Source: Erodium maritimum (lineage: Eukaryota > Streptophyta > Magnoliopsida > Geraniales > Geraniaceae). From it: a DNA stretch of 64,000 nucleotides. The translations under genes and the position numbers were made by a program. Below the pieces are notes generated by a model. It saw nothing but the letters and a program-made list of their open reading frames with translations, ran no database searches and was not told where the DNA came from. The stretch is from the NCBI GenBank assembly GCA_963921825.1, contig OY997594.1, positions 65,147,675 through 65,211,674 on the forward strand, read 5' to 3'. Below are positions 9,599 through 42,691 of this stretch, one piece after another; the stretch's first letter is position 1; every line of letters starts with the position of its first letter.

Positions 9599-9915
9599 GT
9601 CCATAACCATTGCCCGCAAGCTCAATAACCAATGCCCCGCAGGGTCCACAACCATTGCCCGCAAGCTCAATAACCAATGCCCCGCATGGTCCATAACCAT
9701 TGCCCGCAGGCTCAATAACCAATGCCCCGCAGGGTCCATAACCATTGCCCGTACGGTCAATAACCAATGCCCCACAGGGTCCATAACCATTTCCCGAAGG
9801 CTCAATAACCAATGCCCCGCAGGGTCCATAAACATTGCCCGCAGGCTCAATAACCAATGCCCCACAGGGTCCACAACCATTGCCCGCAGGCTCAATAATC
9901 AATGCCCCGCAGGGT
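9599..9915. repeat. Tandem array, 7 copies of a 45-bp unit
   Basis: The unit begins GTCCATAACCATTGCCCGCA and ends CCAATGCCCCGCAGG. Period counts by eye give starts at 9599, 9644, 9689, 9734, 9779, 9824 and 9869, with degenerate copies to about 9990. The array belongs to LTR A. Related units lie at about 6600-6645, on the far side of the nested solo LTR B, so B landed inside the array. Confidence 0.88.
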
Positions 9916-23710: not shown

Positions 23711-24734
23711 TCTAGGGTTCCATTAGAGCTGCTTTAAGACAAAGAATATTTTACATTATCGTATTTTAAAAAATTAACGTCAGCTTCAAACAATATATTC
23801 ATTTATTTGTTAAGGCACATTTTTATATCCCGAGAATGAGTGTATTAGGTATTCAATAAATGAAAATATAAAATATGGGAAACTCTTTTACGGAAAAATA
23901 GGTATCAAAAGTCTGTTTGAGACGAACATAAGCTTAATAATCAAGTTATGGTAATGTTTTGCTCTGAATACCGAGTTTTTATACAAGAATATAGGGTTAA
24001 TTATATTTTACCCTACTTAAGAGACGAAATCCGCTAGAAACCGTGCTTAACGTGCGAACCGTGCGAACCGATCCGCGCCGTCCAGCAACGATGATCAACC
24101 GCCCAGAGCAACTGTCTCACACCTTCCTAAATTTCGTGTTTCTTATACTACCAAGGGTAAGATAGTAAATTCCCTTCCTAGCTTCTTCTTCCTCTTACAG
24201 TGCGATCGCGATCGCGATCGCAGACGCACAAACCTTGAGCTGATTTCACAGTTTTCTCTCAACAAAACACCGACAAATCAACAGCTCTCCATTCCTTTGA
24301 TCGATTATCGTAGAGTCAAATTCGAGCATTACAATCTGAAGATTCAGCCGAAATTCATAAATCGTGCTCTGTTTTTGCTTCTCCACTGTAAATCGCAAAT
24401 TCAATCCTTTTTTATCGCCTGATCAAGCTCAAAAACAGGTGAGAATTATCTAATAACTTGCTTCTATCATCAGTCAATCACATGATCGAAAAACCAGAAA
24501 ATATATGTCGATTTCAAAAAATATGAAAACGTGCTCTGTTCTAGGGTTTATCAAGTATGTTGTTAAGATTTATCGACTATTTGATGTGAATTAACCTCGT
24601 TTCTCAACTAATCAAGCATAAACAAGTACATTTTGAGATATACTCCAACAATCGTTGTTTATATCTCAAATTCGATAAGCAGAAATCAAACTCTGATAAC
24701 TCTTGTTCTTTAATAATTTGTTATCGGTTGCGTT

Positions 24735-25233
24735 GATAAAAGTACACTTTGTTGTTGATAAATCTAACGTCAAGCATTGATAAATTGTCTGTGACTAGAC
24801 GTTCCTGAGTTGATGCTCGTTCAAGGAACAAGTCGTGTTACTGGAATGTATTGATAAATCTTTATACTAACATTGATAAATCGTTCTAGTAGTCTTGATA
24901 AATCTTCCAACTAGTGTTGATAAATCTTTCTTGTTGTGTTGATAAATCTTTCTTCCAGTGTTGATAAATCTTTCTGCTAGTGTTGATAAATGTATGTTTT
25001 AGAGTTGACAAACTAACTGTCTGTGACCTTATCATTCCTGAGTTGATGATCGTTGTAGTCACACGTCGTGTAGTAGTTAGCATTGATAAAATTGCATTTT
25101 ATTGTTGGTAAAAGTTATGTTTAGAATTGATAAATGACTCTGACCAGGTCCCTTCCTCATTTGATAAGTCCAACAATTGTGTTGATAAAACCGGGTTACA
25201 GTGTTGATAAATCTTTCATGTTATATTGATAAA
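24735..25233 (+). repeat. Phased TTGATAAA array, left end of MULE
   Basis: GATAAA starts lie at 24735, 24757, 24779, then 24853, 24875, 24897, 24919, 24941, 24963, 24985 (and the variant GACAAA at 25007), then 25085, 25107 (variant), 25129, then 25163, 25184, 25206, 25228. Within each group the step is 22 bp, with one 21. Consensus is about GTTGATAAATCTTTCTT. Linkers between groups also repeat (TTCCTGAGTTGATG; CCAGGTCCCTTCCT). The array sits in what is probably a 5' leader intron just upstream of the transposase ATG. Confidence 0.9.
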
Positions 25234-25690
25234 TCTCTCTGACCAGGTCCCTTCCTGAGTTGGTACCATGGATCTTGACGATGCTTGCTTTGGATTCGAG
25301 TATGAAGATGTGGATCCTGTTCCACAACCTGTGGTCACAAAAAAGGTGTGGATTCCTGAATGTAGTGTTGATTTAAAGCCTCGAAAGGATATGAAGTTTG
25401 GTTCGTTGGAGGAAGGTATAATTTTCTACCAAACTTATGCATTAAATAGTGGGTTTGGGACACGTCGAGGGCCAGAGAAGAAGAAACCAAGGAGTAACAC
25501 AATCAATTTTAAATGCATGTATTGTGCAAGAGAAGGAGAAGCATTTGTCGATGATACCGAAGGAGAGACCAACGACAAGTTAAGAAAAAGATATAGAATG
25601 TTTACACGAACAGGCTGTATGGCGAGGATTTCTTTGAAACACACTGAAGATGGTTATACGGTGTATGAGTTTAGAGAAGACCACAATCAC

Positions 25691-28361
25691 TGTAAGACCC
25701 GCTTCCGGTCGAACCGGTGACTTCGGAAGTCACTCGGGACTTTTCTGGAAACCAAACGAAGTAGCCACTATCACGGTTGGCTTCAGGGGAGAAAACCCTT
25801 TCGTTTGAGTATAATATTGGATAAAGTCAATTTTGGTCAAAACGAGACTCTTTATCGACTAAAACTCCAATTTTAAAAGTGCTGGAATTTATATTGGAAA
25901 TTTAAATGACCTAGGGGAGGACACATGTCTATTTGTGGTTGAAGGAGAGAAAAAGGATAGTCATTGTCCCTTTTACCCTCCCAAGAGCTTCTACATGGGT
26001 TTCTAACTCAAGGGCTTTTAGTCATTTACTACTTCTAGGTATTATATTGGATTGGAGAAGCCAAAATCATTTTATTTTGCTTGTGGTAGCCGAAAATTGG
26101 AGAGGAAGAGAGGAAGAGGAGCTCTCATGGAAGCTTGAAGGAGAATCAAAGAAGAAGGAACCATTTGGAGTCATCCTCTAGCCTTCCACCCTCAAAAACA
26201 CTAGCATCCTCTTCATCTTCACATTCTAGAGGTAATGGAACTCTCTACTCATCTTTTCTCTTCATCTATTTCCTTGGGTTTTGGGTGAAAAATGGTTAGA
26301 TGATGTTGGGTTGAGTAGAAATGATGGGAGATGGTGTTGATGAAGGTTGATGAAGAGCTTGGTTAAGTTTTTGTGGACAAATCAATGGTGGTTGGAGATT
26401 TTGAAGTGGGTTTAATTTGATGAATCATTGGAAAACTTGTTTGTGTATTGATTCCTACCATGGGTAGAGGAGTATTGATGGATTTGGACTGTTTTGGGGG
26501 TTGGATTGGGGAAATTTCTGGGTTTGAAGGTGGATTTTCGGGGTTTTGGAGCTGGAGGTCGAAGAAGGGCGAATCTGTCCTGGTGCGTCACGGATCCGTG
26601 ACGGATCCCGTGACGGGCGACGTCACGGCTCCGTGAGGGAGACCGTGACGGCACTCGTCACGGCTCCGTGACGGTGACCGTGAGGGTTGCCATCACGGAT
26701 CCGTGACCAGGTCCGTGACCCACCAGTGTGAGGGTTTCTTAGGGGTTTTTCGAAGTGTTTACACCTTGGTTTTGAGCTGAACTTTGGAAGGGTTTTGGGG
26801 GTCTTTCTTGCTGTTTAAGGGGAACCTAATTAGTGTTTCTTTGTGTCCAAGACCTTGGGGATCGAGCTAGAGAAGCAAGGATCACATCGAGGCCCGAGGG
26901 AAGAGCGGGGTGGTGATCACCGGACTTCACCAAAGCGTTGAAGAGGAGGACCTTGAGGTAGGGAAAGCCTTAACCTCTCGTTTATGGTGCCTAGTATGCA
27001 TGCTAAGTTAATAAAATTGGAAAAGGTCCTAGACATGCATAAAGGATGTGAATAACTAGCTTAATCGTCTTTCAATTGCTAATAACCGGAGAGTCTAGTG
27101 GTGACCGATTAGGATGCCAATCACTAGTGTAATTCGCTTTTCAATACTTGGGATATGATTGTCTGGTAGAGGAGCCTTGGCAAAACCCTCAGATTAGTTG
27201 CGTGATAGGATCACATGCTTGGTTGTTGATTGCTTAGCAGATAGGCTAAAGAGTCTAATGAAACTAGCGAAATTGCATGCTTGAATGCTCTTTTGAAGGC
27301 TTTATGATTTAGTTGATCATACTCGTATTTGCTCGTTGATTGTATTCGAATGATTACTTGATTTACTTGATTGGTTGTTGGGGGTATCGAGTATGACTGG
27401 TTGTGCCGAGCGGTGAAATCAGGTGATCGATGCCCCGGTGGTTCGAAACTGGTAAGTGAACGGTAAGTTGGGATTGTGTATTTGGTGTGCTATGGTTGCG
27501 TGATTCGTGTGCTATGTGTTGTGGTGAATTGGCGATGGTTGAGCTGTGTGTGGATTTGGATTGGTGATGGTTGAGCCGTGTGTGGACTTGGGTTGGTGGT
27601 TATTGAGTTTGTATTACTTCGAATTTCTGTTGAGTGCATTATTCAATTATTAACTGCTTATTATTAAATTGCCCACGTGTGCGCTTCCTATGGGAGTATG
27701 GCCCTGGGTTCCCGATGACCTAAAATCCCTTGGAGACGTTTCTGAGACTTCCGATGATATGTGCCTTGAAGGGTGTTTCCGATAGTCTCAATGATATGCG
27801 TCTCCTCTGGATTGGAGGGAAAATCCGAGAGGACACGTAAGACGTGGATCGGAGGGTGGTGACCTCATGTACCACGACATTGTTTGGTTTATCTATTGTC
27901 TCCAATTGTTAAGAACTGCTTGTTAACTTTATTAATGAATTTATTTGTGATGTTATGGACTACCTTGTGGAACGTTCTGTGAATTGTGGATCTTGTGGGC
28001 ATTACCGTTGTTTCTTTGGAGTCTAAGGTTCACTATGTTATGTGTTTTCCCTACTGAGCGTGAGCTCACCCCTATGTTTCACTGTTGTGTCTACAGGCTT
28101 GATTGAGGAGTAGAAGCTTGGGCGCTTCTCGGCGGGGTACTTGTTAGAGGCTTCGGACTTTACTTTTTATGTTTTGAACCAAACTGTGGAGATTATTATT
28201 ATTACCCCCTTGAGGGTTATTTCATGTTTGAACTACGTTTTGTTGGATTCAAGTTATAGTATTGGAGTTTTATGGATTTTGATTTAATTGGTTATCTCCT
28301 TTGCTCTTATTTTACTAGTCATGCCTCGAGTCCGGGCAAGAACCGGATTTGGGGCGTGACA
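25691..28361 (+). mobile_element. Solo gypsy LTR C with perfect target duplication
   Basis: A 2671-bp segment begins TGTAAGACCC and ends GGGGCGTGACA, flanked by ATCAC at 25686-25690 and 28362-28366. It interrupts the FAR1 domain of the MULE transposase gene. It holds no internal gag/pol, so it is a solo LTR. Its last 324 bp match the LTR piece at 29439-29762 with one difference by eye, so both belong to one young family. Ends and some internal blocks (CTACTGAGCG..AGCTCACCCCTAT) resemble LTR A at 5695. Confidence 0.93.
26582..26720. repeat. Array of short imperfect palindromes in LTR C
   Basis: The word GTCACGG(A/C)TCCGTGA(C/G), a palindrome around CGGATCCG, recurs at least four times in about 140 bp, interleaved with GACCGTGACGG-type words. 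It lies in the first half of the LTR, likely upstream of the transcription start. Possible roles are a transcription-factor array or a structured RNA; neither can be decided here. Confidence 0.8.
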
Positions 28362-28813
28362 ATCACCCACTGCAATGTAAGCGTGATTTGCATTATCTGA
28401 GATCAAACAGGGATTTAACACCAAGGCATAAGCAATTTATCATAGATTGCTCAAAGGTTAATTTGGGAGCTACAAAAGCATTTAACCTTTACAGCCAAAT
28501 AGTTGGAGGTCCTACCAACGTAGGAGCGTGTCCAACTGATTTCAGAAACTTCCAGCGGGATCTGAAAGTTTACATTGGAGAGAGTGACGCTCAAATTACC
28601 ATTGACCAATTCCACACTAAAGAAGACTATTGTAGTGACTTCTTCTTTGAGTACAAAGTTGATGCTGGTGATCGGCTAAGCCACCTTTTCTGGGCTGATT
28701 CGATGTCGAGGAAGAATTATGAGCTATTTGGAGATACGGTGTCGTTCGATTCAACCTATAGATCAAACAGGTAAAGCATGTTGTATAACTTGACAATCTG
28801 CATCAGTTTGATT

Positions 28814-28863
28814 GATAAACCCTGCATGTAAGGTTGATAAATTGTATAATCACTGTTGATAAT
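28814..28863 (+). repeat. TTGATAAA triplet in transposase intron
   Basis: GATAAA starts at 28814 and 28836 and the variant GATAAT at 28858 have the exact 22-bp step seen elsewhere in the MULE. They lie within the intron 28771-28900. Confidence 0.8.
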
Positions 28864-28927
28864 TTATTTATCCTTGCTGCTTATGTTTTTGTTTGTTTAG
28901 GTACATGATGGTCTTTGCACCATTCAC

Positions 28928-29438
28928 TGGAGTAGACAACCACAACAAGTCGATCATCTTTGGTGCTGCTTTGTTAGCCAAAGAGGATGCTGAATCTTTT
29001 GTTTGGTTATTCCAAACATTCCTCAAAGCTATGAAGATGAAAGAGCCAAACTGTTTCATAACAGATCAAGACCCAGCGATGAGAAAGGCTTTTGAGGAAG
29101 TGTTCACACAAAGTAGGCATCGACTATGTATGTGGCACATAATGCAGAAGCTTCCTTCTAAGGTAAGTCCTGTTTTGAATTTATACATTTGTTAGTGATT
29201 TATGCTTGATAAAAGTTAACGTTAGGAGATAAATAATTTGTTCGTTTGATTGTGAGACAAATGTATACATTATTATTGCAGGTTCCTCACAATGTATACC
29301 ATGAGACAAATTTCAAGAAGAAATTTAAAGCATTGGTGTGGAGTAACTACACCGAAACAGAGGAGTTTGAGCTGACTTGGAAGGCTTTGATGGATGAATT
29401 CCAACTACACGATCACACTTGGTTGTCTTCTATGTTTG
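28928..29438 (+). repeat. 511-bp direct duplication, left copy
   Basis: This stretch of transposase exons and intron recurs at 35186-35696, at a constant offset of 6258, with only a few base differences (for example GTTTGATTGTGAG against GTTTGATGGTGAG, and CACGATCAC against CACAATCAC). The gypsy fragment lies exactly between the copies. Confidence 0.93.
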
Positions 29439-32400
29439 TTATGTGTTTTCCCTACTGAGCGTGAGCTCACCCATATGTTTCACTGTTGTGTCTACAGGCT
29501 TGATTGAGGAGTAGAAGCTTGGGCGCTTCTCGGCGGGGTACTTGTTAGAGGCTTCGGACTTTACTTTTTATGTTTTGAACCAAACTGTGGAGATTATTAT
29601 TATTACCCCCTTGAGGGTTATTTCATGTTTGAACTACGTTTTGTTGGATTCAAGTTATAGTATTGGAGTTTTATGGATTTTGATTTAATTGGTTATCTCC
29701 TTTGCTCTTATTTTACTAGTCATGCCTCGAGTCCGGGCAAGAACCGGATTTGGGGCGTGACAATTTGGTATCAGAGCCTGGTTTCATTTGAAACAGGTGT
29801 CTTTTGAACTGATTTTCAAACCTCGGACCGAAGTCAATTAGGTTGGTAGAGTTAGGAAGTGTGAGTCTTGAGTTTCTTTAAGGGTTGTCCTAATTGAAAT
29901 CTTGCACTACAATGTTTGCATTACTTGATTGGTATCCTCTCCCTAATGATCGGTGAGGCCGGATGGTTGAGATCAGAATTGGATTGACGGTCAATGACCG
30001 ACCCGCTATGCATACATGATAGTGTTAGCCAACAGTTAGTGGTGTTTGCCCTTTGGCGTTTTACTTCGGAAAAAAATTTCAAGTTGTGGTTGGGTCCGGT
30101 GCAAGTGTTTAATTGTGATTGATTGTTGAGATGGAGCATAAGTACTCCATGTATGCCATTATTGAGCGTTTTGGGTGGGGCACGAGCACCCTATATCCCG
30201 TTGTATGAGAACTATGAGTGGGTCGTCGAACCCGTGTCTTTGCCTTTGGTTGAGTGGCCATGAGAGCCGTGTGGTTGTTTGTGTCTGAGTGGCCATGAGA
30301 GCCGTGTGGTTGTTTGTGTTTGGGTGGCCATGAGAGCCTGTGTGCTAAGGGTGGTGTCGTTGGCTGGCCTCGGGGAGGTTGCGAGCATTCTTTGGCTGGC
30401 TTACGAGTTGATGACTCAGTAAGTTGCGAGCGTGGTTGATTGTTGATTTTGGGAAACGAGTATCCCCTATGCCCGCTGAGGTGGCGATTTTGGGACACGA
30501 GTATCCCCTATGCCCGCTGAGGTGGCGATCTTGGGACACGAGTATCCCCTATGTCCGATGAGGTGACGAATTTTGGAAACGAGAATCCCGTAGGCCCTTG
30601 TGTGGAGAGTTTGGGGCACGAGTACCCCGTGGTAATTGGGAGCACGAGAACTCCGTTTATTGATTGTGTTGTGTACCTTAGGAGCATGAGAACTCCGTTA
30701 TTTTGACTGTGTGTGAAGTCTTGAAAGAGCATGAGGACTCTGTGGATTTGTACCTTGTATTTTTTGTTTTGGTGGTTGTCCCGCTTAAGCGGAGGGTTGA
30801 GGGAAATACGAATGGGTCATGCCGAAATTTCAGTAGAACTAAAATGTTTACACCATCACGGGTTGACTCAGGGGCGCCACTGTAGTCAAGCGTGATGTTC
30901 GATGTCAAGTTGTTACAATGAGGTTTGGGGACGCCTGAATCAGATTGTAACCACATGAGATCGACATGAAAAGGTTTGAGTAAAAGTTAAGAAATGGGAA
31001 TTCATCCCTCGATCCATTCGGGATGATCGGCGCCAGCAGTTTCTGGATTTGCGTCAGAGGGGTTTGAGTGTTTCTGAGTATGCAGTGAGGTTCACCTCTT
31101 TGGCCCGCTTCGCGCCGGAGTTGGTACGGACTGCGGAGGACCGTTGCAGGAGGTTTGAGAACGGGCTCATCCCGTCGATAGCCGACAGGGTTATCGCTTT
31201 CAGGACCACAGATTACTCCACACTCTTGGATCAGGCTTTGGCTATGGAGAGGCATTTCAGAGATACTACCAGGGTGCGAGAGACCAGGCCTAGGCCGAGT
31301 GGCTTTTTGCAGCCGTCTGACCATCGAGACCGCCGCAGACAGAGAGTTGCAGGACACTTTCAGCCTCAGTTTCAGCAGGATGGCATACGCCGAGCAGGGG
31401 CCGTGGCGTCAGTTGGACCCGCCCCGGTGGCACAACTGTGCCCTCAGTGTGGACAGCAGGGTCACCTGGCACGAGATTGCCCGAGGGGTACTGGACCTGT
31501 AGAGCGTCATGTTGGCCGTCCCCAGGGGACCGGTGTTAGGCAGCCTAGTGCACCAAGGGGGTGTTTTCACTGTGGCAACACCGACCACTTCATGCGTGCG
31601 TGTCCTGAGGCAGCACAACTGAGAGGATGCTTCATGTGTGGTCGACCTGATCATTTCATCCGGGCGTGCCCTGAGATAGCTGGCAGAGCGCCTGCACCGA
31701 GGCCCCAGCAGACTCAGATTCGCCCTGTGGCCCCTGTCAGACCACGTCAGGCACCGCAGCAGAGAGCTCCGCGTCCAGCGGCGGGAGCAGCAGGTCAGAG
31801 GCACCAGCCGAGAGCTGAGCAGCGGGTGGCCCTTCCCCCACCACCTAGAGGAGGACCGCCGGCACGACAGGGCCGAGTCTTTGCCGTTACTGATTCCAGG
31901 ATTGAGAGGCCGTACGCCGGCCATGAGGCCACCCAGGGTACGTGTTTACTTTATAATGTGTGGACTTCATTTTTGTTTGATACGGGAGCTTCCCATTCGT
32001 TCATTTCTTCGTCTATTGCTTCTTCTTTGGGTTTGCGGGTTGAGACTTTGAGTCAGCCCCTTTGTTTGGAGACCCCGGTTACAGGTGCAGTGGTGTTGAG
32101 CACCGTCTGCAGAGACTGTGCGATTAGGGTGGCAGATTGCCCATTTCTGGGGGACTTACTCGTTCTTGACATGAGAGCCTTTGACGTGATTCTGGGTATG
32201 GACTGGCTCACGAGGTACCGGGCGACGATCGACTGCTACAGACGTCAAGTTACAGTGAGGTCAGGTGATAGAGTGTTCACGTGTGTTTTGGGTAGCAGGA
32301 GCGGGGTTCTCTTATCCGCTTTGACTGCGGAGTCAGAGGCAGAGATCGTGCGGAGTAGCAGTGAGCTACCGAGGGTAGTACGGGAGTTCCCGGAGGTCTT

Positions 32401-35185
32401 TCCGGAGGAACTATCAGGCTTGCCACCAGTGCGAGAGGTGGAGTTCAGGATCGATCTGATCCCGGGTACGGCGCCGATCTCGATGACGCCGTATCGGTTC
32501 GCACCAGCCGAGTTGGTCGAACTTAAGAGACAACTTGAGGAACTGCAGCAGAAGGGGTTCATCCGCCCGAGCGTGTCTCCGTGGGGAGCGCCCGCCCTTT
32601 TCGTGAAGAAGAAGGGTGGAGCCTTGAGGATGTGTATAGATTACAGGAAGCTGAACCGGGTGACAGTGAAGAACCGCTACCCGATGCCTAGGATTGATGA
32701 TTTATTCGACCAGCTGAGGGGAGCAAAGTACTTCTCAAAGATCGATCTTCGATCTGGGTACTACCAGCTGAGAGTCCGAGCTGAGGACGTAGAGAAGACA
32801 GCGTTCCGCACTCGTTATGGACATTTCGAGTTTTTGGTGATGCCGTTCGGTTTGACGAACGCGCCGGCCGCCTTTATGGACTTGATGAACGACATCTTCA
32901 GGCCTTATCTAGACCAGTTCGTGGTAGTCTTCGTCGATGACATCTTGATCTACTCGCCCAGTGAGGAGGCGCACGCGGAGCACCTACGGACCGTTTTGAC
33001 ACTCTTACGCACCCATCAGTTGTACGGCAATCTGGAGAAGTGCGAATTTTGGCTCTCTGAGGTGAAGTTCCTCGGTCACGTGGTATCACAGGAGGGCATC
33101 TTGGTCAACCCAGCCAAAGTTGAGGCAGTGTCGAAGTGGGCAAGACCCAGTAGTGTATTTGAGATTCGGAGTTTTCTCGGGTTGGCGGGCTATTACCGAC
33201 GTTTCGTTCAGGACTTCTCTCGCCTTGCCGCACCTATGACCGCTTTGACCCGCAAAGGAGCGGAGTACATTTGGACGGATGAGTGTGAGCGTTCTTTTTG
33301 CGAGCTAAAGGCTCGGTTGACTACCGCCCCGGTGTTGATCGTTCCAGATCGGGGAGTGGGCTATGACGTGTATTGTGACGCTTCTGGCGAAGGGCTAGGT
33401 TGTGTTCTGATGCAGGGAGGGAAGGTGGTTGCTTACGGCTCGAGGCAGTTGAAGGTACATGAGCGCAACTACCCCACCCATGATCTCGAGCTAGCAGCAG
33501 TAGTATTTGCGCTGAAGAGCTGGAGACATTACCTGTATGGTGAGCAGTTCAGGGTGTTTTCAGACCACAAGAGCCTCAAGTATATCTTCTCGCAGCGTGA
33601 TCTGAACATGCGCCAAAGGCGGTGGATGGAACTACTTGAAGAGTATGACTTCGAGTTACTTTATCATCTGGGCAAGGCGAACGTGGTTGCCGATGCTTTG
33701 AGCAGGAAGTCGAGTCACTGCGTTGCCAGTATGGCAGTCTGAGAGTGGGACATGTTGGAGCAGTTGAGCTCATTCAGACTGGAGTTGGAGGAGGTCACAG
33801 AGAGTATGGCCTTGTGTGCCTTAGTGGCTCAGCCCACACTTTTTGCTCAGGTGTTAGAGGCACAGACTGAGGATGCTGAGACAGCGGGGTTTCGGAAGAA
33901 GTTGATGGATGGAGTCGAGCTCGAGGGTTGGGAGATAGGCACCGATCAGGGTATCCGCTTTAGAGGACGACTGTTTGTACCCAGTGAGTGCAGAGACACT
34001 GTGTTGCGTGAGTGCCACCGCTCCCGTCTAGTTGTGCACCCCGGTGGTAACAAGATGTATAGAGACATGCGGCGACAGTTTTGGTGGAGTGGGATGCGTG
34101 GGGCAGTGGCAGATTTCGTTTCTAGATGCCTTACCTGCCAACAGGTAAAGGCCGAGCACATGCGTCCCGCAGGCTTGTTACAGCCTTTACCGATCGCTGA
34201 GTGGAAATGGGAGCACGTGACTATGGATTTTGTGTGTGGGTTGCCCAGATCGTCGAAGGGGCATGACGCTGTTTGGGTGGTGGTTGATCGACTGACCAAG
34301 TCGGCCCACTTTTTGAGTATGAGGATGACTGATTCTGTGGACATGTTGGCCCGCTTGTATGTCAGAGAGATTATTCGTTTACACGGTGTACCTGTATCAG
34401 TAGTATCGGATAGAGACCCCCGTTTCACATCCAGGTTCTGGAAGAGCCTACAGAAGGCCTTGGGCACTAAGGTACTGTTGAGTACAGCTTACCATCCTGA
34501 GACAGATGGACAGTCAGAGCGCACCATTCAGATTCTCGAGGACATGCTTCGGGCTTGTGTGCTTGACTTTCAGGGGTCATGGGAGGATCATTTGCCGTTG
34601 GCAGAGTTTGCCTACAACAACAGTTACCAGTCTAGTATCGGTATGGCGCCATTTGAGGCCTTGTATGGCAGACCTTGCAGATCGCCGGTGTGTTGGGCTG
34701 AGGTTGGAGACCGGAGCCTACTTGGACCAGACATGATCAGGGAGACGACCGAGAAGGTCACTTTGATTCGAGAGCGGCTAAAGACCGCACAGAGTCGGCA
34801 GAAGAGCTACGCAGACATGCGTCGTAGACCACTTGAGTTCATGGTCGGGGAACACGTGTTTCTGAGGGTTAGCCCGAAGAAGGGGCTTGTGCGGTTTAAC
34901 CGCAGCGGGGGAAAACTGGCACCGCGTTACATCGGACCATTTGATGTGTTAGAGAAGATCGGAGCTGTAGCCTATCGGTTGGCCTTGCCACCGCAGCTTG
35001 GGAACGTGCATAACGTTTTCCATGTGTCCCAACTGCGGAAGTACATAGCAGACCCTTCGCACATCATTGAGTGTTCTGACATCGAGATAGCAGATGATGT
35101 CACCTTTGGGGAGCAGCCCGTTGAGATTTTGGGTACGAAGGAGAAGATCCTGCGGAACAAGACAATTCCGTTGGTGCTAGTACAG
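29439..35185 (+). mobile_element. Ty3/gypsy (chromovirus-like) retrotransposon fragment
   Basis: It begins inside an LTR: 29439-29762 is the last 324 bp of an LTR of family C. A tRNA-Met-type primer site follows (TTGGTATCAGAGC, about 29765-29777). A long leader leads to gag with CCHC knuckles (about 31.0-31.7 kb), then protease (DTGASHSFI, near 31.98 kb), reverse transcriptase (FVDDILIYS, 32.5-33.1 kb), RNase H (33.3-33.7 kb), integrase (34.0-34.9 kb) and a chromodomain-like end to 35185. The 3' LTR and part of the 5' LTR are absent, and no 5-bp target duplication is present. Domain order fits the plant Tekay/Del-type chromoviruses. The fragment looks young; it is broken, chiefly by loss of both ends, with few further breaks. 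Confidence 0.93.
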
Positions 35186-35696
35186 TGGAGTAGACAACCA
35201 CAACAAGTCGATCATCTTTGGTGCTGCTTTGTTAGCCAAAGAGGATGCTGAATCTTTTGTTTGGTTATTCCAAACATTCCTCAAAGCTATGAAGATGAAA
35301 GAGCCAAACTGTTTCATAACAGATCAAGACCCAGCGATGAGAAAGGCTTTTGAGGAAGTGTTCACACAAAGTAGGCATCGACTATGTATGTGGCACATAA
35401 TGCAGAAGCTTCCTTCTAAGGTAAGTCCTGTTTTGAATTTATACATTTGTTAGTGATTTATGCTTGATAAAAGTTAACGTTAGGAGATAAATAATTTGTT
35501 CGTTTGATGGTGAGACAAATGTATACATTATTATTGCAGGTTCCTCACAATGTATACCATGAGACAAATTTCAAGAAGAAATTTAAAGCATTGGTGTGGA
35601 GTAACTACACCGAAACAGAGGAGTTTGAGCTGACTTGGAAGGCTTTGATGGATGAATTCCAACTACACAATCACACTTGGTTGTCTTCTATGTTTG
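35186..35696 (+). repeat. 511-bp direct duplication, right copy
   Basis: Second copy of 28928-29438. The transposase gene continues from this copy into 35697 onward, so this copy is the one in register with the downstream exons. Confidence 0.93.
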
Positions 35697-35831
35697 ATAT
35701 ACGGGATAGATGGATCCCTGCATATTTTAGGGGGGCTAAAAATGGGACTATTCCTTAGAACAACATCAAGATCAGAGAGTGAGAACAGTGCATTTGGTCA
35801 ATTCACTAACAGGTACCTTTATTTTGTGATT

Positions 35832-35983
35832 GATAAATGTTTCAATGAGGACTGATAAATTCTGCACTTTTGACTGATAAAAATATGTGTGGAGACAGTA
35901 GTGTTTTCTGATGATATAATTTATTCTGTTATGATAAATGTTTCAAGAAGAACTGATAAATTGTGAAGTCTTGACTGATAAAA
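35832..35983 (+). repeat. Two TTGATAAA-type triplets in the last transposase intron
   Basis: GATAAA starts lie at 35832, 35854 and 35876, and at 35933, 35955 and 35977. The step is 22 bp inside each triplet and 101 bp from triplet to triplet. They fill most of the intron 35813-35998. Confidence 0.88.
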
Positions 35984-36872
35984 AATGTTGTTGTTCAGGT
36001 GCCTTACCTTGGTTGAATTCATGTGGCGCTTCGATACAGTCGTTGAAGGTCAGAGACAGAAACAATTACAGCTGGACTTCCAATCAAGCACCTTAGCTTC
36101 CAATTTCATGGTATTATCTGAAATTGAAAAGGACGCTTGGAGGATTTACAGCCGCTCAATCTTTGACATCATTAAGAAAAGTGTTGTGGGAACAACCTTC
36201 AGGTGTGGGATCAAAACCTGTGTTGAAAAGGATGGAAATAAGATATATAACATCGCAAACAAACATGGGGACAAGACGTTTGTTGTTGTGCAAAGCTTAC
36301 CTGGGAACCATTGCACATGCACTTGCATGAGATTTGAAGGATTTGGCATCCCTTGTATGCATATTTTCTTAGCTTTGCAATCATCTATGGTTGATCAAAT
36401 ACCGGAGAGCTTGATCACGCAAAGATGGACAAATGATGTATGCAAGAATGCTGAAAACTCTGCAGATTCTGAAGAATTACAACCATCTGCCTACGGTGAG
36501 TGTAAGAAGATTATTGCAGATATATGCTCGATGCTTCAATCTTGTGCCCTCCATCCAGCAGTGAATGCTGCAAAGTTGAAGGAATTTGCAGAACAAGTAA
36601 AGGACTTCAAGAACAAGTTGAATGATGACGAAGTTGATGATTTTGCATCAAGCACAACACAAGAACGTCAGACTTTGACAGATCTTTCTAAACCTTCACA
36701 GGTTATTGTCAAGCTACCACATATATCAAGGACAAAAGGTTGTGGACAGAGAATTCAATCAGGGATGGAAAGGTCTATTGAAAAAGCTAAGAAAAGGAAG
36801 ATGACTTGCAAAGGATGTGGTCAACCAGGTCATGACATCAGAAACTGCTCCCCAAAAAAAGATGGCTGCAGT

Positions 36873-37273
36873 GATAAAACATTGAACTAGTGTTGATAAA
36901 TGTAGCACTTAAAGTTGATAAATAATTTCCACCTATTACTGACTCTATGAATTACAAGGTCATTCAGTACTGATAAAACATTGAATTAGGCTTGATAAAG
37001 TCTTCAAGTAAAGTTGATAAATCTAGTTTTTATTATTCCTAAGTCTGATTTACAAGGTCCTTCAACATTGAATATGTACACAAATTTAAGGGTGATAAAA
37101 GTTGTAACAAATGTTGATAAAAGCTTAGTACATCACTGATAAAAGGACCTTCGAAAGTACTTACCTATTGCTATTCAAAATAGCCATCCACAACAGTGAT
37201 AAACCATGAACACAGAATTGATAAAACTCTTCTATATATGTGATAAACCTGGTACATATAACAGATTGATAAA
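36873..37273 (+). repeat. TTGATAAA triplets between the two MULE genes
   Basis: Four triplets with an exact 22-bp step: 36873/36895/36917, 36972/36994/37016, 37094/37116/37138 and 37198/37220/37242, plus a single site at 37268. The first site lies just inside the end of the transposase frame; the rest cover the spacer to the 3' end of the Ulp1-like gene. Linkers repeat as ACAAGGTCCTTCA-type words. Confidence 0.9.
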
Positions 37274-37439
37274 CCCTGTCATTTCACATGCTTAAAAACA
37301 TCTATGCACATTTAGTATCATCTGTTTACCAAAAAATGCTAGAGTCATAAGAAGTTTGCAACTGATTACATCCTTTTTACCAAAAAAAGTAACTGCACAA
37401 AAGACCTAATGCTTTATACAGGTGTCTTGTCCAACAGTC

Positions 37440-40400
37440 CTATATAGTTCTTTCTGAAGAAGCAGGAGATAGCTCATCCCCTCCACTTGGTTGATTCCTC
37501 TGACAGTAGCTCCTCAGCTTTACCTCGTTCATGATCTTTGCGGTGTTGCTTGGATACGTGCACAATTGCATGACATATCGACGCCTCAGCTTCAATAATT
37601 GATCAGCCTATATACACAACAAAAAACCACCCAAATTAGTTAAACTACACACATAAAAACACATGACTTAAAAAGAACTGCACAAGATAAAAATGCTAGC
37701 TTACATTGTTCTTTGACATAGGGAAACCCCAAGTACTTCCAGATTCACCCATGTACCTCTCCATGTGAAACATGCAGTAGATGCCACAGTCAACCACATT
37801 ATCACTGCTGCTCCAATCTAGCTTCAAACCCTTTCCACGTCCATTTCTGATTCTCACAGAGAGCGTAGCATCAAGCCTTTCAAGGAACATCGAAAACCTA
37901 TTCCTCTGTCAATGATTAACAGAAAATACATACATTAGAAACACAAAAATGTACGTAAAATTAATAACTAAAATCGCAAATAAAAACTTACCAAATTAGT
38001 GATTCTGTTCCCGTATTTGCCTCTAAAGTTAGTCCCCTGCAAGTTGTCGAGGACAACCACTGTGTGTTTCTTCATGTAGAAACATACCAAGTAATAGTGA
38101 GACTTTGCATGAACTGGGAAAAACACCTGCCATAGAAGAACAAAGAAGACAATCATGGTTACACAAAACACAAACCTAATACTATAAAAATGATACATAA
38201 GCCTGAAAATGTGTGGGAGATCCTTACCAAATCCACAGTAGTGAGATTGACATCCGTGTACAACTCCAACTCGGTTTCAAGATCATCACGCCAGTTTTCT
38301 TTCTTCAGATCAATCAAGGATGTCTAATGATAAAAAACATGTAAAATGATAAACACATTCCCACCTTAGTATTATTAAAAAAAAAAGACAAAATTCACAT
38401 GAATAAAAAACACTCACGCTTGCAACTGTTGTGAAGAAAAACCTTGAAGGTTCATCCGGTGTTCTCTTCTCCTCCATCAAATTCATGTAAGCTACCCATG
38501 CATTAATAACACCCACCATTACTTCTGTCCCAACTTTCATCGATTATAAATCATTTTTCATCACACCTATACTGCCATCCATGATTTCAAAAACCATTTC
38601 CCTTCAAAAAACACAACACATCTGTGGTGATAAACCTATATCACATTGTTGATAAAACTAGCAGATAGAGTTGATAAAAATGTAACACATGGTTAATAGA
38701 TAAAAAACAATGTTTGCTAATGGTATACACATCAGTGGTGATAAACCTATATAACATTGTTGATAAACCTGACAGATAGAGTTGATAAAAATGTAAAACA
38801 TGGTCAACAGATGCAAAACAATGTTTGCTAATGCTATATACATCAGTGGTGATAAACCTATATAAGATTGTTGATAAACCTAGCAGATAGAGTTGATAAA
38901 AATATAAAGACAGGGTTAGGACAATACCACTGGTCTTCTCTATCGCCGTTCAGCAGCCATTCCATCCATAGTTGCTCTTCTTTTGTCAATGGAGCATTCA
39001 AATCTGTTTTCCTAGTTGATGGCCCTGCCTTTATAATTTTCTTCGTGGTTGGCTTTTTACTACTGCTTCTCGATTTCTTCTTTTCTTCTTTCTCTTTGCC
39101 CTTCTCTGTCCTCACAATATCTTCACATGCTTCCCTCCCTACATCAACATCTCCACATGCGTGCCTCCCTATGTCAGCAACATCTTCAAGACCGAGACTG
39201 AATGTAGGCATCCCACGACCTTGTGGCTCGCCTACATTGGTCTCCTCGGCATCCGCCGCAGACGTGATATTATCATCACCTTTTCCTTGTTCGACAACAT
39301 TGTTGCCTTCAGCTTCTTCAACAGCATTATCACATTTCCCTTGATCACCAGCATCATCACATTTCCCTCCCACAACACCTTCTACCTCAACGTCACAATC
39401 TCTTCCTAACTCCACTACCGGTTCAACCCCATCCTCGTGCTCCTCAGCAACCATATTATCCCTTCCAAGCCTAACAGAACCAGCTTTTGCCTTCTCTCTC
39501 TCTGCTACACAATCTTGGCCATCGTTCTCCTTACCGCTACCCTGGCTATTCACTTTAGTTGCAGCACTAAATGCTGCATCAATAGCCTTTATCACATCAG
39601 GATGCCTCCACCAACGATCTTGTGATGACTCTTCGATGTTGTGCTCTGATGGGCCCCCCACCATCTCATTCACAGCATCGTGAAGCCTCTTGACGGTGAT
39701 ATTGTCAGAAAACTTTGAAATGACTGTTCTAATGCTGTCCTTAAAAAGGACATAGCTATCAGCGAGATGCACTGCTTGTTCTGCCAGCTTTACGATGAAT
39801 TCCTACACATTACAAAAATACAAAAAATGTTACAGAAAAACACAAAAACTTATGACTTTAACACAAAAAAAATTTGAATATACCTCTTGTCCCAGATCAT
39901 CAATGACATCTTCAACTTCCTCAGTTACGTATGGGTCTTCCTCTATGTAACCTTCCCCGAATGACCCGTATTGCTTTTTAAGATACTCCCGAACTTTCAA
40001 GTCATCAGATGTCCACCCAATGAGAGAAGGTTGGGCCCTCTCCACAACTCTCTTCTCGAGCACAACCCGATCAACATAGTATAACTGCATAACACCAAAC
40101 AAAACAATTTAGAAACTGCTGACAGTGAAAATAAATTTGTTTATCAACACTACATGCATAAATTATCAACCTTATACAATACTTTTATCAATGCAACAAG
40201 GATGATAAAAAATTAAACTAACCATGAGAAATGTCAAAGGCCCAGCATAGAACTTCTCTTCTGTGGCTGACTTATCCCATTTTTTTTTGCTTTCAATCAG
40301 ACCATCAATGACAAAGCCACACCAGTCATATTCTGGGATGGCATTTACTTTGTCCATTGCGTACAACACAGAATTATTCACATAGCTCCCGCTCGTCCCT

Positions 40401-41386
40401 TCAACCATCACAGTTGAGAATAACACCGCAAAATTCCACTTGAACATTTCTTCATCTCCTCTTTGTTTCTTCATCACTTCAATCAGAGAAGAGATGCTCA
40501 CTCCAAAAAATGATTGAAGATTAAACTGCCGAAGCCAACGTGCAACAAGTCGACAAAAATCAGACCTCTCTGGGATGATCGCTCGTCCGCCACAGAAGAT
40601 CCCTAATGTTTCCTTAACATTTTCGCTGCTGATGTGTAAAAGTCGGTCTTGCGATAGCTTTATGCAAAGACTCCCGGTATGGATATTACTCACAAGCCAA
40701 AACCCAAGGGCTTGTGGTAAGTCCTTCACCTCCAGCAGCAAGATACTCCCAAACCCCATGTCCTGTACTGCCTTCTTCTACAAATCACTCATTCCCTCCA
40801 TGAAATTGACCAAGGACTTAGGTGATGTCCTGACCTTCAACCTCCGAAGACCATCACCTCTTACACGAGCCTGATCCTTCTTGGTCCTCTTTGGAATTGG
40901 GTTTGAAAGAGCATTGGCCTCCGGCTGTGGTCTCTTCTTTAGAGGACCTACGAATGCTTCCATAGATGAGCTTTGTCCTGCATCCTTTGTCGGATTAGGA
41001 GCAGGAGCAGCAGGAGCAGCAGTTGCAGATGAGCTATTTTCTGCTACATCATTTGCTGGGTTCAGAGGAGGAGCTATGACTGATCCCTCTGCTGGATTAT
41101 GAGGAGCGGGCATCAACAACTTTTGTCCTGCATCCTTTGTTGGATTAGGAGCAGCAGTCGCGGATGAGCTCTCTCCTCCTACAACATTGGCATGATTCGG
41201 AGGGACTTTGATCTTGATAACAGGACGTTTCTTCGCTTTGACTGCACAACACATTCAAAAACACAAAAAATCACCAATCATACTAAAAGCATATAATAAA
41301 AACAAAGTTTAAATTATTCTAAACCTTTTACCTGGGATCAAGTCCTTCAGGAGAAGTGAATCCTCATTTGATCTAGTCTTCACCAT
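37440..41386 (-). pseudogene. Ulp1-like (C48) cysteine protease gene of the MULE
   Basis: Start at 41386 (MVKTRSNEDSLLLKDLIP). Exons by splice sites: 41332-41386, 40223-41241, 39884-40084 and 38928-39802, then smaller exons near 38.4-38.6, 38.2-38.3, 38.0-38.1, 37.7-37.9 and 37.4-37.6 kb. The N-terminal part has Pro/Ala-rich repeats (NPTKDAGQ), then a DUF1985-like region (MGFGSILLLEVKDLPQALGF). The middle is acidic and Lys-rich. The C-terminal part carries the Ulp1 triad: His in AKSHYYLVCF, Asp in VVLDNL, Cys in VVDCGIYC. Ulp1 enzymes cleave SUMO or related conjugates; a role in transposition is unknown. One in-frame TAG lies at 40778-40780 before MGFGS, so this copy seems dead unless spliced around. 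It converges on the transposase gene. Confidence 0.78.
38629..38900 (+). repeat. TTGATAAA higher-order repeat inside the Ulp1-like gene
   Basis: Triplets at 38629/38651/38673, 38740/38762/38784 and 38851/38873/38895: 22 bp within triplets and 111 bp from triplet to triplet. The 111-bp unit (GATAAACCTATA-type start, then an ACATTGTTTGCTAATG-type linker) is a true tandem repeat. It lies in an intron of the minus-strand gene, so the motif is antisense to transcription here. Confidence 0.9.
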
Positions 41387-41446
41387 TTCTCTGAAACACA
41401 GACACTTATACATAAGAGTGTGAGCAAATCAAAGCTGAGTGTGTTT

Positions 41447-41738
41447 GATAAACCTAGATCACAGTGTTGATAAAAGCACAGGACAATTGTGATAAACACA
41501 CATAATAAGACTGATAAACACAGATCACAGTGTTGATAAAAGTACAATACAGTTGTGATAAACACATATACTAAGACTGATAAACCTACATCATAGAGCT
41601 GATAAAAAACAATGCAATGTTGATAAAAATGAATACAAGTGTTGATAACTCACAGAGTTGATACTTATTCAATACTAAAAACATAAGTGATAAATCTATC
41701 TCACAAAGTTGATAAATGTGAATGTCAGTGTTGATAAA
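41447..41738 (+). repeat. Phased TTGATAAA array, right end of MULE
   Basis: GATAAA starts lie at 41447, 41469, 41491, 41513, 41535, 41557, 41579, 41601, 41622 and 41644 (variant GATAAC), then 41689, 41711 and 41733. Steps are 22 bp with one 21. A 66-bp sub-period (about three sites) is visible: CACAGTGTTGATAAAAG recurs at about 41462 and 41528. The array lies just upstream of the Ulp1-like start, so it mirrors the left array in position but not in orientation. Confidence 0.9.
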
Positions 41739-42691
41739 ACACAGATACACCACCTCTCACACGTTCAACCCTCCCCAATTCAAACTTCAAATGCATACCA
41801 AGCTTCACTTCAGTCATGAAAACATTCTTTTACTCAAACAGAAAACACATTGTCATGCTTACCAATCGTGTACAACCACAAAACACATTATCTGAGATCA
41901 AACTTCGAAATCAGTACATGCTCACAAACATATCATCAAAAAATCAAAATCAACACGCATGCAAATGAAAATGAGACAATCAAACGCAGAATACAAGATA
42001 TTTACAAGTTTTAGACAAACAAAATGCACAATCAAACACAAAACCTAGATCAAACATCAACACACATGCAGTTAAGTTGAAAAATAACTAAAAACAGAGC
42101 ACAAAGCTTTCCAAACCCTGAATATATGTTCCTCCCTCCGGAAATCGCACACAAAAACGCTTTGAAGTAACAAAATAAACTATCGAACTCAAAAACTAGG
42201 TCAAAATCGACTGGATTTCAAAAATAAATCCCTAAATCAGTGAAGCTTATCACAACAAAAAATGATCAACACAATGAGAATCGGAGACCAAACCTCAATA
42301 TGATGCGTAGAACTCAACCGGAACTTTGGATTTTGCTTGAGATTGACGAAAAACACGAAGAAAACCGCACAAAAATGACGACCGAGCGAGAAGAAGAAGC
42401 TGAGAGCGAGAGCGAGTACGTGCGTGCGTGAGAGTTGTGTCTGATAGATCGGAACAGTCGCGTAGTTGAGAAGAACAAAATGAAATTACGATTTAACCCT
42501 CACAAAACTAAGGAATATTACAAAAATGCCACCGAATTGTGCTGTTTTTTTTTCTAACAGAAGTCAACAAGTCAACATCCTACTAATAATCTCAGCCATC
42601 CATTTGTGAAATGAATGGCTTGGGTTGGTTCACACAGTTTTTAGGTTAAGCTATGGTTTCTATTTGATTTTTTCTCCCCTACTTAATTATA

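Follow-up and report, generated by a model that had tools for sequence, protein, structure and literature searches.

A 22-bp phased TTGATAAA array in a FAR1-type MULE of Erodium maritimum as a putative docking platform for an Ulp1-like protein

Results

We analysed a stretch of 64,000 nucleotides from Erodium maritimum (contig OY997594.1, positions 65,147,675 to 65,211,674; hereafter the window), which contains a Mutator-like element (MULE) with terminal inverted repeats (TIRs) and two convergent genes, a FAR1-type transposase gene on the plus strand and a gene for an Ulp1-like protein on the minus strand. The non-coding DNA of this element is occupied by an array of the short motif TTGATAAA in steps of 22 bp. 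The element, its genes and two inserted retroelements are as follows.

24021..42676, no strand assigned: whole MULE, with two retroelement inserts; ends set by sharp boundaries shared with non-autonomous copies, by TIRs and by target site duplication (TSD)
24021..24069, plus strand: left TIR (GAGACGAAATC...), recognised through the TIRs of the family
42627..42676, minus strand: right TIR
25268..36887, plus strand: FAR1-type MULE transposase gene, interrupted by the two inserts, domains in open frames
25259-25717, plus strand: frame with the FAR1 domain (Pfam FAR1, 3.8e-14)
28863-29192, plus strand: frame with the MULE domain (Pfam MULE, 9.4e-25)
35982-36887, plus strand: frame with the SWIM domain (Pfam SWIM, 3.6e-05)
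37699..41254, minus strand: Ulp1-like second gene, with two in-frame stops in the window copy
25691..28361, plus strand: solo long terminal repeat (LTR) of 2.67 kb in the FAR1-domain exon, with a 5-bp TSD ATCAC (by eye)
29437..35182, plus strand: partial gypsy element inserted in the transposase gene, without an exact array site

The original prediction, made from the letters of the window, had confined the element to 24735-41738. These ends were rejected in favour of 24021 and 42676, as the 10-bp TSD CCCTACTTAA is present on both sides of the latter interval. The TIRs are imperfect and about 50 bp long, and an alignment of the left with the right TIR was not significant by itself (score 33, shuffles up to 35). 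The domains and strands of the two genes agree with the predicted pair of a FAR1-type transposase and an Ulp1-like gene facing each other. A transposase with FAR1, MULE and SWIM domains, the TIRs and the 10-bp TSD identify the element as a FAR1/Jittery-type TIR MULE, a group with TSDs of 8-11 bp. Among the best 120 of 501 matches to the transposase, the top six (40-45% identical) came from Perilla, Cuscuta, Ipomoea and Lotus.

Without its inserts the MULE measures about 9.7 kb; site counts were run on 10,246 bp as the MULE's own DNA, with the start of the solo LTR taken as 25692. This DNA contains 39 exact forward and 3 exact reversed copies of TTGATAAA, compared with a mean of 0.6 and a maximum of 4 in 500 first-order Markov sequences, and 38 pairs of GATAAA exactly 22 bp apart (simulated mean 0.008, maximum 1). 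Exact sites were absent from the solo LTR and from the gypsy insert, and the 45 kb of flanking DNA held one in each direction. The inserts thus serve as an internal control, and the array therefore belongs to the MULE. None of the 42 exact sites was located in an exon, by exon borders which are approximate and were drawn in this analysis. The array begins about 0.7 kb inward of the left element end, and its forward sites are distributed over the segment from the left TIR to the start codon (15), the transposase introns (5), the spacer between the genes (7), the Ulp1-like gene intron (6) and the DNA upstream of the Ulp1-like gene (6).

24733..25233, plus strand: 5' terminal array, 15 exact TTGATAAA
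28812..29213, plus strand: sites in two transposase introns, 3 exact
35464..35982, plus strand: sites in later transposase introns, 2 exact and 8 GATAAA, two 101-bp units
36873..37273, plus strand: spacer array between the convergent genes, 7 exact TTGATAAA
38616..38916, plus strand: array in the Ulp1-like gene intron, 6 exact sites; a 111-bp unit is present in 2.7 copies
40140..40191, minus strand: reversed group (two exact sites, a third imperfect) within intron 1 of the Ulp1-like gene
41445..41738, plus strand: array on the 5' side of the Ulp1-like gene, 6 exact TTGATAAA; eight GATAAA spaced by exactly 22 bp are followed by others

Most of what had been predicted for the array was reproduced. 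The figure of about 60 motifs in 24735-41738 suits GATAAA (67 forward, 8 reversed) and does not apply to exact TTGATAAA (38 forward, 2 reversed); with at most one mismatch allowed, 77 forward TTGATAAA were counted. The commonest GATAAA lag in this interval is indeed 22 bp (38 pairs), no such pair lies outside it, and random sequence gave at most one. The runs at 36972/36994/37016 and 41447-41601 (8 in a row) and the higher-order units of 101 and 111 bp were found as described, whereas the run of eight at 24853-25007 consists of seven exact GATAAA and one GACAAA. The reversed sites noted near 40140-40200 correspond to the group listed above; the third exact reversed site, at about 24548, lies in the 5' terminal segment. 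In the sibling copy L021, two exact reversed sites (7492 and 7536) occupy the place of the intron 1 group. In the 5' array a second word (TTCCTGAGTTGATGnTCGTT...CGTGT) stands between groups of motifs, at 24802-24838 and 25035-25071, the two being 84% alike, and similar words are present in aligned relatives.

The orientation of the array agrees with the transposase gene and opposes the Ulp1-like gene. It is constant with respect to the element and not to transcription, which argues against a role at the RNA level and, as originally proposed, for a putative protein-binding array. In six sequences from five full elements, 488 of 733 GATAAA pairs within 160 bp were spaced by 0-2 modulo 11, a count which includes flanks and in which the window and L021 are nearly alike. 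The same class comprised 875 of 1359 pairs in 13 non-autonomous copies, which hold recent duplications. The long-range GATAAA period read off the lag list is about 11.1 bp, not 10.5 bp.

The information content of 237 distinct GATAAA sites was profiled in five stretches from four elements, the window being omitted as a near-duplicate. Information is largely concentrated in (G)TTGATAAA and peaks once more at +22 and -22, whereas spacer positions do not exceed about 0.2 bits. The height of the central core reflects how the sites were selected, an effect of which the +22 and -22 peaks are free. After masking of the motifs, the alignment placed 4, 6 and 5 of the 15 window sites on sites of L024, L023 and L016, respectively. 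Circular shifts gave a mean of 0.5-0.6 and reached the observed value in 1.5% (L024), 0.0% (L023) and 0.2% (L016) of cases. These counts indicate that some sites have been retained and others replaced, with the density and the step preserved. The masked alignment replaces a comparison of the 5' regions of the window with L023, L024 and L016, in which motif columns were 92-94% and other columns 57-60% identical; that figure was set aside because motifs attract each other in the alignment and inflate it.

Gene neighbourhoods were scored for the best 150 of 1047 transposase candidates and the best 150 of 728 Ulp1-like candidates; the window is counted twice among the transposase loci, via its duplicate, and Ulp1-like genes of low identity may escape the best-150 set. 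At 79 of the 92 transposase loci with at least 80% identity, an Ulp1-like gene follows on the opposite strand, no more than 30 kb downstream. The same arrangement was found at 1 of 56 loci with 50-68% identity and at neither of the two loci between these classes. Gene and array occur together in all five full elements examined from this transposase clade (window, L016/L017, L021, L023 and L024). The four relatives examined from the 50-68% class (L022, L025, L026 and L027; 59-64% identity in the MULE exon) have no array, with one TTGATAAA at most, and yielded no Ulp1-like match below E 0.4. They do have a TIR-like match with 4-5 mismatches near the expected left end, the right end not being found for most of them; the array is therefore not required for having that TIR.

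A different motif accompanies a diverged second gene. The Ulp1-like gene of L029, 32-48% identical over pieces to that of the window, is associated with 36 CGCAAA (4.8 expected), 35 of them outside approximate exons, and with no TTGATAAA. Eighteen CGCAAA pairs are exactly 22 bp apart (500 simulations: mean 0.006, maximum 1), and no match to a FAR1-type transposase was found in the 10 kb of L029. A second copy, L030, about 84% alike over aligned stretches and covered over 3.7 kb, has 18 TTTGCG and one CGCAAA, with 22 bp separating 10 pairs. In L029, L030 and the window alike, the motif and the Ulp1-like gene point in opposite directions. L029 also contains, far upstream of its Ulp1-like gene at 9612-9813, CGCAAA turned the other way, in a 22-bp tandem block that is nearly perfect (reversed block 9646-9796). 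Taken together, a 22-bp array is present in 7 of 8 stretches with an Ulp1-like gene, five with TTGATAAA and two with CGCAAA, and in none of the four FAR1-bearing relatives without this gene; L028 is the one stretch that speaks against a strict tie. The motif thus differs between families whose second genes have diverged, TTGATAAA marking the five full elements and CGCAAA marking L029/L030.

The last exons of the Ulp1-like gene encode a Peptidase_C48 domain (22.7 bits, cut-off 20.7). The protease-motif residues H812, D829 and C887, which are presumably catalytic, are invariant in three copies and kept in the window copy. Pieces of the protein are 57-75% identical between copies, compared with 79-95% for the MULE, SWIM and middle pieces of the transposase. 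A dN/dS of 0.06-0.33 in 11 of 12 pairs (one pair undefined) indicates that the Ulp1-like protein is under constraint. Short N-terminal peptide repeats (40972-41203, minus-strand exon 1) vary in number and sequence among copies. A homologue search with the protein returned one weak match, from Tanacetum (E 6.1e-12, 26% over 18% of the query), and a search with a three-row alignment returned none. A structure of the first-exon domain predicted without an alignment had a mean predicted local distance difference test (pLDDT) score of 46.6 and was not used.

Throughout the 763-Mb genome (40 contigs, the window lying on C7), TTGATAAA-N14-TTGATAAA occurs 13,984 times (7153 forward, 6831 reverse) and a reversed-pattern control twice. 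The first of these places, on contig C1, form 23 clusters, of which 19 were examined as 20 stretches of 10 kb; the clusters were picked by their array, so that the sample does not give the frequency of the array among all TIR elements. A matching TIR was found on both sides of the array in 15 of the 19 clusters, on one side in two (L011, L020) and on neither side in two (L009, L015), by a fuzzy pattern with a null rate of 11 per million bases. The original prediction regarded an array common in unrelated DNA as counting against it: the array is very common genome-wide, but in 15 of the 19 clusters examined it lies between TIRs of this family. As to the check it proposed, whether each array sits with a FAR1-like and Ulp1-like gene pair, one cluster (L016/L017) is a full element with both genes, and the other clusters showed no coding similarity to the genes of the window at E 1e-4. 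Fourteen of the 15 TIR-bounded clusters are small non-autonomous copies. The 13 with measured ends are 1.2-3.0 kb long and carry 6-41 exact TTGATAAA, none reversed; a target duplication was seen by eye in 11 of them and was not clear in L018 and L019.

The window copy of the element is broken by the solo LTR, the partial gypsy insert and the two in-frame stops in the second gene. The gypsy insert comprises the 3' part of one LTR, a stretch which we take to be like a primer-binding site, and pol frames; its LTR piece is 99.7% identical to the solo LTR over 328 bp. It is bordered by a 518-bp direct duplicate of transposase DNA (28925-29442 and 35183-35700, 99.2% identical) in place of a short TSD, which suggests that insertion took place during break repair. 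The sibling L021 has neither insert, yet has stops of its own in the transposase. At the left end of L024, TIR matches at 45 and 207 lie 162 bp apart, possibly one element beside or inside another.

Discussion

We consider it probable that the array provides docking sites for the element's own Ulp1-like protein, acting in the manner of the VANC proteins of Arabidopsis VANDAL MULEs. This reading is supported by the confinement of same-orientation sites in 22-bp steps to non-coding DNA, by sites that outlast their spacers in diverged relatives, by the link between array and Ulp1-like gene, by the exchange of the motif at an unchanged step in a diverged Ulp1-gene family, and by the constraint on the protein. 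This protein is taken as the binder, and anti-silencing as the purpose, because the array has the anatomy of a VANC target and some VANC genes contain an Ulp1 domain. VANC21 occupies YAGTATTAY motifs, which are densely packed in one orientation in the non-coding DNA of introns, intergenic and terminal regions, and it lowers methylation across its element; VANC6 reads other motifs (PMC5735166). By analogy, the Ulp1-like protein would bind the motif, with several molecules lining one face of the DNA, and once bound would clear silent marks over the whole element. Non-autonomous copies carrying the same array would likewise be cleared. The Ulp1 protease fold could in addition strip SUMO from silencing factors.

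Several observations weigh against docking of the Ulp1-like protein. The long-range period of about 11.1 bp departs from the 10.5 bp of B-DNA. Pfam did not find DUF1985 or DUF287 in the pieces scanned, with filters that drop most matches above E 0.1. The FAR1 domain diverges too, its identity being about 72% in L016 and L024 but 37-38% among relatives without an array, and a co-changing transposase is therefore compatible with the array-less contrast taken alone. Since the four array-less relatives are probably one subfamily and L029/L030 are two copies of one family, each contrast may represent a single evolutionary event. L028 (2494-9790) has a FAR1 transposase and an Ulp1-like gene (32% over the first domain), but no TTGATAAA. 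ATGTAA was considered as a third motif in L028 and rejected as too weak (28 compared with 9.5 expected; weak phasing, several steps of 21-23 bp). Finally, VANDALs are non-TIR MULEs according to PMC13317346, whereas the element described here is a TIR MULE with a FAR1-type transposase.

An alternative is that the array binds the FAR1-type transposase, which the original prediction had named as its first choice, and is needed for transposition. Subterminal repeats of Ac and Spm are a precedent for such sites, FAR1 is a DNA-binding domain which changes faster than the remaining transposase, and the 14 small non-autonomous copies retain both TIRs and the array, though they were chosen by the array. 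Sites of this kind do not account for filled introns and a filled central spacer, nor for one-way motifs in place of motifs inverted at the two ends. Moreover, the array is missing from all four relatives examined in which a FAR1 transposase and a TIR-like left end are present and no Ulp1-like gene was detected, whereas L029 has its array without a FAR1 match in 10 kb. We therefore regard binding by the transposase as unlikely.

A role of the sites in transcription through a host factor (of GATA, MYB or another type), or as a plain silencing target serving as a source of small interfering RNA, seems more doubtful still. GATAA forms the core of many host factor sites, but a host factor leaves two things unexplained, namely why the array goes with the Ulp1-like gene and why Ulp1-gene families differ in motif while sharing the 22-bp step. 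The array might also have grown passively as a functionless tandem repeat. Local duplication is clear, with 111-bp units in the window and 288-bp units in L001, and spacers are conserved in non-autonomous copies. In full elements, however, core and step are kept at many separate places between spacers that are near random, and exact sites are absent from exons; passive growth is in our opinion the least credible of these explanations.

Beyond docking by the Ulp1-like protein, we propose tentatively that gene and array might form a movable anti-silencing cassette, independent of the type of transposase and of DUF1985. The protein would dock in a fixed geometry, with a single site for every two turns of the helix and all sites in one strand sense, opposite to that of its gene, whereas the word would be swapped between families, and thousands of small copies with TIRs and array would use the protein of the autonomous element. 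The two natural candidate protein-motif pairs (TTGATAAA and CGCAAA) under one spacing rule make the DNA-reading part of the protein and the role of helical spacing testable. If docking by the Ulp1-like protein is true, they would also be two new motif-protein pairs for targeted demethylation.

Comparison with known systems shows that the novelty assumed in the original prediction, by which arrays of this sort had gone undescribed in MULEs, does not hold, as the arrays of VANDAL21/VANC21 are a direct precedent (PMC5735166). VANDAL motifs include YAGTATTAY and AGTTGT(C/A)C, with hypomethylation demonstrated (PMC5735166; PMC10398659). With VANDAL21/VANC21 and VANDAL6/VANC6 the present element shares its nature as a MULE, dense same-orientation arrays of a short motif in terminal, intronic and intergenic DNA, local tandem duplication, a motif that differs by family, and a second gene with variable peptide repeats which diverges more than the transposase (PMC5735166; PMC10398659). 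According to a 2026 review, some VANC genes of VANDALs include an Ulp1 domain, and the motifs on which they act are of their own kind (PMC13317346). KI-MULE/Kaonashi elements (KIU) likewise have an Ulp1 domain in a second gene that is reverse to the transposase and said to act on own-kind motifs; unlike the MULE of the window, they are non-TIR elements with a mudrA gene (PMC13317346, PMC2528002). Jittery-like MULEs with a ULP sequence downstream of a Jittery-like transposase (FAR1/FHY3 clade) are known from grapevine and melon, so that the gene pair is not new; sections 8 and 10 of PMC2528002 mention no motif array for them.

VANC proteins of VANDALs have DUF1985/DUF287 domains, whereas none were found in the pieces of the Ulp1-like protein scanned with Pfam, and the motif here is TTGATAAA. 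The VANDAL transposase VANA is of the MuDR type. The element described here is VANC-like in its putative workings, but it is not classed as VANC because DUF1985/DUF287 were not found and because it is a TIR MULE with a FAR1-type transposase. No TTGATAAA array in a MULE was named among the titles and abstract openings of the literature searched. Sasaki et al. (2022, EMBO J) reportedly deal with the domains DUF1985, DUF287 and Ulp1, with the sequence, density and helical periodicity of motifs, and with non-autonomous copies. Within the literature searched, what appears to be new is the presence of an array in an element of this type, the use of TTGATAAA and CGCAAA as its motifs, and the exchange of one motif for another while the 22-bp step stays fixed, although that study may cover part of this. 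If docking by the Ulp1-like protein is true, sequence-specific anti-silencing would reach beyond VANDALs to a FAR1-type TIR MULE.

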